Source of the DNA: an uncultured Prevotellaceae bacterium
GTDB lineage: Bacteria; Bacteroidota; Bacteroidia; Bacteroidales; Bacteroidaceae
Length of the DNA stretch: 50,457 bases
Direction: 5' to 3'
Assembly: GCA_902779455.1 (NCBI GenBank)
Contig: CACZBS010000027.1
Span: 1-50,457, forward strand
The notes under the pieces are model-generated. The model was not told where the DNA came from, made no database searches, and saw nothing but the letters and a program-made list of their open reading frames with translations. Made by a program: the position numbers and the translations under genes. Every line of letters starts with the position of its first letter. Positions within the stretch are counted from its first letter, which is position 1. Below, piece by piece: positions 26,217 through 41,836 of this stretch.

Positions 26217-26436
26217 AGCGTAATAATTTTGTTTGAATGGTTTAACGTCAATTATCGGGAAATGGCGCTTCTTGAAAGTAATATACCCCTATATTACCTT
26301 CGAGAATGGGCACTTTCCGTTGTAATATGCCCCCAAATTGGGGGAGTCATTCTTTGTTTGCCTGTTGCTGAAAGAGGGTAGCTTGGGCTGGCTACCCTAT
26401 CTTGGCCGTTGTGCTTCGGTAACGGTCTGGTATTTC
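26217..26436. other. Leader of the HU-like gene with small inverted repeats
   Basis: No gene. Contains GTAATATA/TATATTAC (26278-26297, 4-nt loop) and CCCCC-AAATT-GGGGG (26330-26344). Direction and distance fit operator or attenuator sites of the HU-like gene, but no TAnnTTTG box was found on the minus strand. Confidence 0.35.
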
Positions 26437-26637
26437 AACGCCCCCTGGCCCCCTCTAATCTTAGAGGGGGAATTAGTTACCTCTGTCGCTGACATGTCAG
26501 CAGCAGGGCTTCCCGATTCCCCCATCCGATGCAGGTCTAACCGGCTCCCCATCCGATGCAAGTCTAACCGACTCCCCATCCGATGCAGGTCTAACCAGCT
26601 CCCCCTCTAAGATTAGAGGGGGTCAGGGGGCGTTGAC
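26437..26637. repeat. Inverted-repeat element next to the DUF559 gene (copies R1 and R2)
   Basis: R1 (26437-26480) and R2 (26595-26637) are the same ~43-bp sequence in opposite orientation, each centred on a palindrome CCCCCTCTAA-TC-TTAGAGGGGG and edged by CAACGCCCCC. Between them are three units of a 27-bp tandem repeat (TCCCCATCCGATGCAGGTCT plus seven bases). The DUF559 stop codon lies inside R2. Confidence 0.85.
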
Positions 26638-27374
26638 TCCCCGCGGATCGTTGACTCCCCATCCGATGCAGGTCTAACTAACTCCCCCTCTAAGATTAGA
26701 GGGGGTTGGGGGGCGTTGACACCCCGTCGACCATTGACTCCCCGCGGATCGCTGACTCCCTGCGGGCCATTGTCTCCCTTTGCCCTCTCGGCCTGCACTT
26801 GCAATATGCTATTGATGATTGCCTCCAGCTGTTGGAAGACCAGCTTGTTTTCAAACCGCAAGGTACGGATGCCATACTTTTGCAGCAGTTCTTCGTCGCG
26901 AGCCAGGTCGTGCTCGGGCATGGCCCCATAGTAATGGTAGTTGCCGTCAAGTTCGATGGCAAGTCTCAGGGCTGGACAGTAGAAGTCGAGGATGTGTGGG
27001 CCTACGGAGAACTGACGTCGGAACTGAAGGCCCCCCACCTGCTTGGCTCTGAGATGTCTCCATAGTGCACCCTCTGCGGGTGTGCCGTTGGTGCGGAGAT
27101 TGCGGCGGAGAGATTTCAGGTCCCCGGTGTTCATGACATGTTCAGTCGTCAAAGGCACCTCGGCGGTTGTCAACGCCCCCCGGCCCCCTCTAATCTTAGA
27201 GGGGGAGCTGGTCAGACCTGCATCGGAGAGGGAACTGGTCAGACCTGCATCGGAGGGGGAGCTGGTTAGACCTGCATCGGAGGGAGAGCTGGTGTCACCT
27301 TTCTCGTAGCCCCAGCCGGCCCACCTCTTTGCGAAGTCGGCCGCAGCTACCGCCTGCTGTCTTTCAGTATTCAT
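26613..27374 (-). CDS. DUF559 endonuclease-like protein with repeat-derived ends
   Basis: 253 residues. The core, residues ~81-192, is a DUF559 domain of the PD-(D/E)XK/Vsr-like nuclease group: LRRNLRTNGTPAEGALWRHL, then ILDFYCPALRLAIELDG with D130, E141 and D143, then YGIRTLRFEN. Residues 1-28 (ending RWAGWGYEKGD) are unrelated to DUF559 and resemble the N-terminus of MmeI-like restriction-modification enzymes. Residues 29-66 are four copies of SSPSDAGLT and a palindrome-derived SPSKIRGGRGAL. Residues ~200-253 are again translated repeats (PPLILEGELVRPAS). Met81 is the likely ancestral start, so the product could also begin there (27134). Expression from the TATCTTTG box at 27409-27416 would give the long fusion. 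DNA cleavage is inferred from the family. Confidence 0.8.
   Translation of the reverse strand: MNTERQQAVAAADFAKRWAGWGYEKGDTSSPSDAGLTSSPSDAGLTSSLSDAGLTSSPSKIRGGRGALTTAEVPLTTEHVMNTGDLKSLRRNLRTNGTPAEGALWRHLRAKQVGGLQFRRQFSVGPHILDFYCPALRLAIELDGNYHYYGAMPEHDLARDEELLQKYGIRTLRFENKLVFQQLEAIINSILQVQAERAKGDNGPQGVSDPRGVNGRRGVNAPQPPLILEGELVRPASDGESTIRGESTPPDPL
26641..26722. repeat. Repeat copy R3 plus a 27-bp-type unit, coding for the DUF559 C-terminus
   Basis: R3 (26680-26720) is in the R2 orientation, preceded by one 27-bp-type unit (26655-26680) and by CGCGGATC words shared with 26748-26756. The DUF559 gene reads through it (PPLILEGELVRPASDGES). Confidence 0.8.
27171..27294. repeat. Repeat copy R4 and 27-bp tandem units (mirror of the left flank)
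   Basis: R4 (27171-27212) has the R1 orientation, followed by three and a bit 27-bp units (ACTGGTCAGACCTGCATCGG plus seven bases). These are the reverse complement of the units at 26519-26600 on the other side of the nuclease core, so the core is bracketed by inverted copies. Confidence 0.85.
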
Positions 27375-41530: not shown

Positions 41531-41677
41531 AGACCCCACCCCCGACCCCTCCCCTTGAAGGGAGGGGAGTAGCTGCGCCGTCATTCCGTGCGAGCAGTGC
41601 GGCAGCCCCCCCTCCTTCGGAGGGGTCGGGGGAGGCTACTCCCCTCCCTTCAAGGGGAGGGGATGGGGGTGGGGTCT
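41531..41677. repeat. 147-bp G/C-rich composite palindrome
   Basis: Arms 41531-41572 and 41636-41677 (42 nt each) pair with two mismatches; each arm itself contains CCCTCCCC/GGGGAGGG type pairing. An inner hairpin sits at 41604-41638. A short related hairpin (CCTCCCC-TTC-GGGGAGG, 41797-41813) follows, ending GGGGTCT like the arm termini. The 391-nt gap 41512-41902 holds only these repeats and the terminator at 41837. Confidence 0.8.
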
Positions 41678-41836
41678 CTAACTTTATCACCAGTCAGTTA
41701 TCATCATATAAGAAAACGCAAGGGACAAACACTCCCCCCCCCTCAAATAAAGAGCTCTGGCCGCTTAGTCCGCCGCGAATGACGGCGCAGCCAACTCCTC
41801 CCCTTCGGGGAGGCCGGGAGGGGTCTAATGGAAAAA

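Follow-up and report, generated by a model that had tools for sequence, protein, structure and literature searches.

A mobile repeat system resembling REP/REPIN probably has as its dedicated enzyme a nuclease of the DUF559 family (Vsr/EDxHD-type PD-(D/E)XK), in the place that RAYT proteins take in known systems; we put the probability of this reading at roughly 0.65. Many bacterial genomes are strewn with short palindromic repeats, some of which have no known mobilising enzyme. The unit of the proposed system would be a hairpin with a C-run tag, arranged as C-run, 2-4 nt (often (Y)RR), C-run, loop and G-run. Two such units, most often inverted, would enclose either the nuclease gene (the autonomous form) or a short spacer (the nuclease-free form). 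If this reading is correct, a Pfam 'protein of unknown function' family gains a role and a repeat class gains an enzyme, and the system shows how an essential enzyme can host a selfish element in frame, with no need of splicing.

The locus from which the analysis started lies in a stretch of 50,457 nt, hereafter the window, which is contig C27 of a 3.70-Mb genome of an uncultured Prevotellaceae bacterium (49 contigs, 93% complete). The DUF559 domain occupies residues 87-193 of a 253-aa ORF (E = 7e-26). The original prediction, made from the letters of the window, described a DUF559 core bracketed by inverted palindromes, 27-bp tandem units in mirror orientation, a further inverted pair (R1-R2) beside it, and a protein whose two ends are translated repeats. 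Each of these features was recovered (Table 1). R1 and R2, inverted over 45 nt, form a tag-outward pair. The tags closest to the nuclease gene face inward, which counts against the proposed system. The locus has a bracketing score of 77, whereas 50 dinucleotide shuffles reach 11 at most. These shuffles, together with a backwards control that returned 0 sites, rule out a chance or low-complexity origin of the window repeats. Of the neighbours of the nuclease, those tested are an HU-type and a TMEM260-like protein; other gene names used here, LeuS excepted, come from reading the sequences rather than from family searches.

Table 1. Features of the window and locations of the four nuclease genes of the host genome. 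Positions are those of the window unless a contig is named.
Feature	Position	Strand	Basis
253-aa ORF, DUF559 nuclease, repeats translated at both ends	26613-27374	-	ORF and profile search
DUF559 (PF04480) catalytic domain, Vsr/EDxHD-like fold	26796-27116	-	profile search and structure comparison
R1, F1-family repeat: tag TCAACGCCCCC.. on the left, hairpin CCCCCTCTAATCTTAGAGGGGG next	26435-26479	+	
27-nt tandem units, three copies (CCCCATCCGATGCAGGTCTAACCGGCT..)	26520-26607	+	sequence comparison
R2, 91% complementary to R1 in inverted orientation; tag on the right	26592-26636	-	sequence comparison
One more copy of the 27-nt unit	26657-26690	+	sequence comparison
R3, inverted copy; tag facing the nuclease gene	26675-26719	-	sequence comparison
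R4, F1 repeat beyond the other side of the gene; tag facing the gene	27170-27206	+	sequence comparison
Mirror-orientation 27-nt tandem units; translation gives TSSPSDAGL repeats	27199-27306	-	sequence comparison
Inverted arms bracketing the DUF559 gene, 116 nt, 89% complementary	26522-26637 / 27169-27284		
Nuclease-free tag-outward F2 pair, one F4 unit nested within	about 41531-41678	.	by eye
Another hairpin with a G-run tail (CTCCTCCCCTTCGGGGAGGCCGGGAGGGG), possibly a fifth family	41795-41830		
F1 family, nuclease	window (C27)		
F2 family, nuclease	C9		
F3 family, nuclease	C19, between gltX and KDO-transferase gene		
F4 family, nuclease	C6, between yicC and gmk; ORF continues in frame into gmk		

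The palindrome is not local. With up to three mismatches, the F1 repeat (CCCCCTCTAAKMTTAGAGGGGG) has 62 sites in the genome and 0 in the backwards control, as would be expected of the dispersed repeat originally envisaged. Among the 50 of 62 sites listed, 25 neighbour pairs lie within 250 bp of each other, and the tags point outward in 17 of these. From 20 stretches fetched, 11 nuclease-free F1 pairs align as closely similar elements, running from TCAACG to CGTTGA, at different sites. The exact ends of the F1 element are unsettled because extra bases outside the tag are common to most copies; this outer sequence, met only together with F1 in a scan of stretches chosen for their repeats, is a possible longer F1 end. 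At three loci (L339, L340 and L342), F1 copies are expanded into multi-unit arrays.

What had been taken for the single nuclease-bearing copy proved to be one of four DUF559 genes in the host genome, each amid a different G/C-rich palindrome family (F1 to F4). The second palindromic region of the window (41531-41677), thought to be of a comparable type, is indeed nuclease-free and G/C-rich, but its repeats belong to other families. The F2/F4 pattern has 294 sites (152 + 142) against 5 (2 + 3) in the control, and the F3 pattern 26 (15 + 11) against 0. An F4-type tail (..GGGGGAGG) is present in 22 of the 100 F2/F4 sites listed (294 in total); all three listed sites close to the C6 nuclease have it, and all five close to the C9 nuclease lack it. 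Within the same 100 listed sites, tags are outward in 31 of 50 neighbour pairs at most 250 bp apart. F3 palindromes also occur in frame within the gltX-like and KDO-transferase-like ORFs that flank the C19 nuclease gene (L002). Four nucleases in four families, each gene flanked by its own family, is the layout of RAYT/GTAG REPs; one enzyme per repeat family is described for TnpAREP REPtrons in a portion of PMC6006769. With one gene per family, inverted pairs and nuclease-free copies, the analogy to RAYT/REP drawn at the outset is a good one.

Given this likeness, the repeats could be ordinary REPs moved by Y1_Tnp, with DUF559 a mere neighbour, an explanation to which we give very little credence. 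A profile search of the host genome (93% complete) gave no match to a Y1_Tnp/RAYT gene, and RAYT was rejected as the driver there; the same genome has the highest pattern excess of 148 genomes. We classed these 148 by their matches, taking E < 1e-20 as strong DUF559 and counting 12 with weak matches alone as without. An excess of at least 20 pattern sites occurs in 3 of 6 genomes with strong DUF559 only, 14 of 39 with both enzymes, 10 of 62 in which Y1_Tnp is the sole enzyme, and 0 of 41 that lack both. Across the 148 genomes, with kinship left in, the link between pattern excess and DUF559 presence is significant but loose. The Y1_Tnp-only genomes with an excess, which favour RAYT as the driver, count against strict dependence of the repeats on DUF559; either DUF559 is not the sole route or the pattern is too unspecific.

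RAYT loci themselves carry another type of palindrome. Among 20 Y1_Tnp loci of the order Bacteroidales, hand-picked mainly from repeat-rich genomes, 11 are bracketed by repeats with a score of at least 20, and therefore the bracketing test works. The C-run motif is found at only 1 of 18 of these loci within 500 bp (2 of 20 within 600 bp), and the palindromes look different. Conversely, the GT[AG]G foot is found in 0 of the 78 repeats nearest DUF559 genes.

The association of DUF559 with repeats extends across phyla. A genome-collection scan confirmed 573 DUF559 relatives, the best 80 of which form the cross-phylum set; DUF559 was also found in 57 of 148 sampled genomes of the order Bacteroidales. 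Many DUF559 genes have the C-run, 2-4 nt, C-run, loop, G-run architecture nearby, a typical repeat reading ..CCTCACCCC-YRR-CCCCTCTCC..GGAGAGGGG, and the (Y)RR linker is present in 51 of the 78 nearest repeats. The motif occurs within 500 bp of 48 of 72 cross-phylum loci; for control genes of these contigs the count is 21 of 619 and, for small genes, 5 of 174. Two thirds against about 3% agrees with the original expectation that most DUF559 genes of the clade sit in repeats. It is likewise present at 16 of 31 Bacteroidales-order loci, a set that has no control positions. Loci with flanks shorter than 300 bp were omitted from the motif counts (8 of 80 cross-phylum, 2 of 33 Bacteroidales-order and 2 of 20 RAYT loci). 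The motif is absent from 24 of 72 and 15 of 31 loci in the two sets, which counts against the system.

Bracketing gives a similar picture. Direct or inverted repeats with a score of at least 20 bracket 32 of the 70 cross-phylum loci with 500-bp flanks (10 of the 80 had shorter ones), compared with 30 of 1982 control positions from those contigs. In the shuffle-tested set, 14 of 29 loci reach this score, four mis-centred loci (L080, L081, L098 and L100) being left out. Of 12 loci taken from 45 matches in a plasmid collection, seven are bracketed above their own controls and five are not; bracketed examples come from Deinococcus, Alphaproteobacteria and Neisseria, the last scoring 78 where its controls reach 51 at most. 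Overall, repeat-bracketed DUF559 genes occur in at least eight phyla. In 35 genomes, those behind 35 of the 80 cross-phylum loci, the C-run pattern was set against its backwards control: it is at least double in 24, Planktothrix for example having 1763 pattern sites against 123, and falls short of that in 11, which counts against the system. Where the motif lies on both sides of the gene (36 of 103 loci), the tags are out/out in 16, in/in in 9 and mixed in 11, and motif and domain are separated by a median of 82 bp on the left side and of 44 bp on the right.

Related nucleases tend to occupy related repeats. Over 71 loci, nuclease similarity tracks the similarity of the nearest repeats (Mantel r = 0.29, p = 0.0005, with host kinship left in). 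At a locus of another uncultured Prevotellaceae genome (L179), which is not bracketed, a nuclease 50% identical to that of the window adjoins nearly the same palindrome. One repeat is common to loci from two phyla, in Phormidium (L154) and Armatimonadetes (L155).

In an AlphaFold model of the window domain (pLDDT 88.7), the fold resembles I-Bth0305I and Vsr. The top Foldseek match is the Neisseria DUF559 structure 3HRL (E = 1e-7), followed by the catalytic domain of the homing endonuclease I-Bth0305I (3R3P, E = 1.5e-3). PvuRTs1I and Vsr come further down (E = 0.005-0.03; Vsr 0.02), with mitoribosomal proteins intermixed. An alignment of 45 DUF559 sequences has 15 invariant columns, including T22, E25, D54, E65, D67, H71, D80 and R83, and residues of active-site type are invariant throughout. 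A Thermosynechococcus DUF559 gene is placed in the EDxHD homing family in the relevant part of PMC9403480.

This nearness to a homing endonuclease lends some weight to the main rival of our reading, in which the palindrome is a target and DUF559 a passenger that homes into pre-existing repeats spread by something else. Repeat sites also far exceed nuclease genes in number, a further point in its favour. We consider this rival unlikely, mainly on the evidence of genes that occur both with and without the element. The LeuS editing domain (PF13603) gives a strong match (E < 1e-50) in 144 of 148 genomes, eight of which, from seven families, carry DUF559 in frame within the LeuS ORF. Five filled alleles compared with 30 empty ones place the insertion at exactly one position, by reading a short turn, and 0 of the 30 empty alleles has repeats; these 30 loci were the best-scoring matches and so are biased to uninterrupted domains. 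Inspection of the DNA by eye revealed an inverted repeat pair in six of the eight insertions and none in two, the latter counting against the proposed system. The LeuS turn is a tolerant insertion point. In one genome (L241, G041), it holds an in-frame short tandem repeat (CTCAGAA..) in place of the nuclease. Long LeuS ORFs in three others (G031, G074 and G091) have a second weak DUF559-like match elsewhere in LeuS, perhaps an older, decayed insertion. A scan of 11 loci, three of them LeuS insertions, found no Rfam intron, which makes intron hosting of DUF559 less likely.

A second set of alleles is provided by the region upstream of gmk. The end of yicC directly precedes gmk at 18 of 23 gmk loci; the other five, with no yicC end in view, carry no motif. 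A nuclease with a tag-outward pair occupies 3 of the 18 yicC-gmk junctions, a decayed nuclease with a pair occupies one, a lone tag remnant another, and 12 are free of the repeat; in the host genome, the right end of the element replaces the start of gmk. The remaining junction, from another family (L318), holds a nuclease-free tag-outward pair and speaks for homing into repeats. The 12 free junctions and the 30 empty LeuS alleles speak against it: because empty alleles are repeat-free, gain and loss of the nuclease appear to be coupled to those of the repeats. Furthermore, no Y1_Tnp that might have spread the repeats beforehand was detected in the host genome.

DUF559 is also found in frame in an HsdM-like ORF (L085), a capsule-type epimerase, a DegT-like aminotransferase (L273) and the front of argB. 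The DegT-like ORF has another repeat-like peptide elsewhere. Since the repeats in such fused ORFs are read through without a stop, an insertion can preserve the frame and be tolerated. No target-site duplication was evident by eye at the gmk or LeuS junctions. The original prediction anticipated strains whose filled and empty alleles differ by the element. Alleles that differ by nuclease plus repeats were found, but all of the pairs are between species; no same-species pair emerged from E. coli ycjD, the only case examined at strain level. Between species, presence and absence of the nuclease go with presence and absence of the repeats, also where the element lies in frame in a host gene.

The DUF559 gene ycjD has matches in 3365 of 5426 E. 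coli genomes, at one locus. C-run hairpins follow the gene, and a 51-base query of one of them finds a median of 19 places per genome. Four strains without ycjD (L290-L293) have efflux or TetR-family regulator genes beside sapF or fabI; in these strains the locus has undergone allelic replacement, and no empty site is seen. In another strain (ETEC6, L296), IS1 splits ycjD. The gene looks stable within E. coli, and RAYTs are likewise said to be stable within species in a passage of PMC6006769.

Such persistence at one locus would suit a domesticated enzyme, that is, a Vsr-like mismatch or hairpin-processing nuclease for which the repeats are binding or regulatory sites, immobile today. Excerpts of a study of the Caulobacter DUF559 protein VsrA, which report a functional link to a cytosine methyltransferase and propose a mismatch-repair-like role (PMC12907096), point the same way. 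Yet a motif screen, run without a positive control, found a C5-methyltransferase-like ORF within 3 kb at 0 of 80 loci, on which ground a linked cytosine methyltransferase, a Vsr trait, was rejected; this result concerns linked partners only. The in-frame insertions in LeuS, DegT-like and HsdM-like proteins and those upstream of gmk also fit a mobile element better, and we regard domestication as improbable.

We therefore return to a mobile system served by DUF559. In the mechanism that we propose, the nuclease would recognise its own tag-hairpin and nick or cut at the target, and repair of the break would then copy the element, or a nuclease-free derivative, into the site, as in homing. Nuclease-free pairs would be mobilised in trans. 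The suggestion that DUF559 proteins spread such palindromes is thus upheld as regards association, dispersal and filled and empty alleles; that the nuclease itself drives the movement is what we infer from these. A literature search of open-licence PMC papers found no report of a link between DUF559 and palindromic repeats or of an in-frame LeuS insertion with a homing endonuclease, and no mention of the repeat sequence GGGGGATTTAGGGGG.

Among known systems, RAYT/TnpAREP with GTAG REPs (REPtron, REPIN) is alike in having one enzyme gene per family, flanked by repeats, and in its inverted pairs, dispersed enzyme-free copies and several families per genome. The DUF559 enzyme, however, is PD-(D/E)XK rather than HUH-Y1, its repeats lack the GT[AG]G foot (0/78) and have a second C-run as the tag, and its nuclease-bearing elements are found at varied sites, in some cases in frame with a host gene. 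CGTC-tagged REPs are also palindromic, form inverted dimers and lie inside genes, and in excerpts of Di Nocera et al. (2013; PMC3733652) they are described as having no known mobilising enzyme or dedicated transposase. DUF559 was rejected as their missing partner, since the CGTC foot is found in 3 of the 78 nearest repeats and the CGTC repeats found at a Neisseria locus lie more than 2 kb from DUF559.

EDxHD/Vsr-like homing endonucleases such as I-Bth0305I are alike in fold and active-site type and in entering the same site of a conserved gene (LeuS) in separate families. In contrast, DUF559 is flanked by hairpin repeats and remains in the host ORF, and the 11 loci scanned gave no Rfam intron. 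Rickettsia palindromic elements are palindromes translated in frame inside unrelated proteins. They share this feature with the elements described here, but their sequence differs, and DUF559-type elements can bear their own nuclease gene. MITEs and IS-derived miniature elements are likewise enzyme-free, multi-copy units with inverted repeats, whereas the partner here is a hydrolytic nuclease, not a DDE or Y1 transposase, and no target duplication is evident by eye. As the system is neither RAYT/GTAG nor CGTC REP, and is REPtron-like with an unrelated enzyme, we place it as a new kind. On balance, we lean towards a third, phylum-wide class of mobile REP-like palindromes, tagged by a second C-run and independent of RAYT, for which DUF559 would be the dedicated enzyme. 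Such a class would spread units both with and without the nuclease, and its insertions would lie in frame in essential genes, leuS among them.
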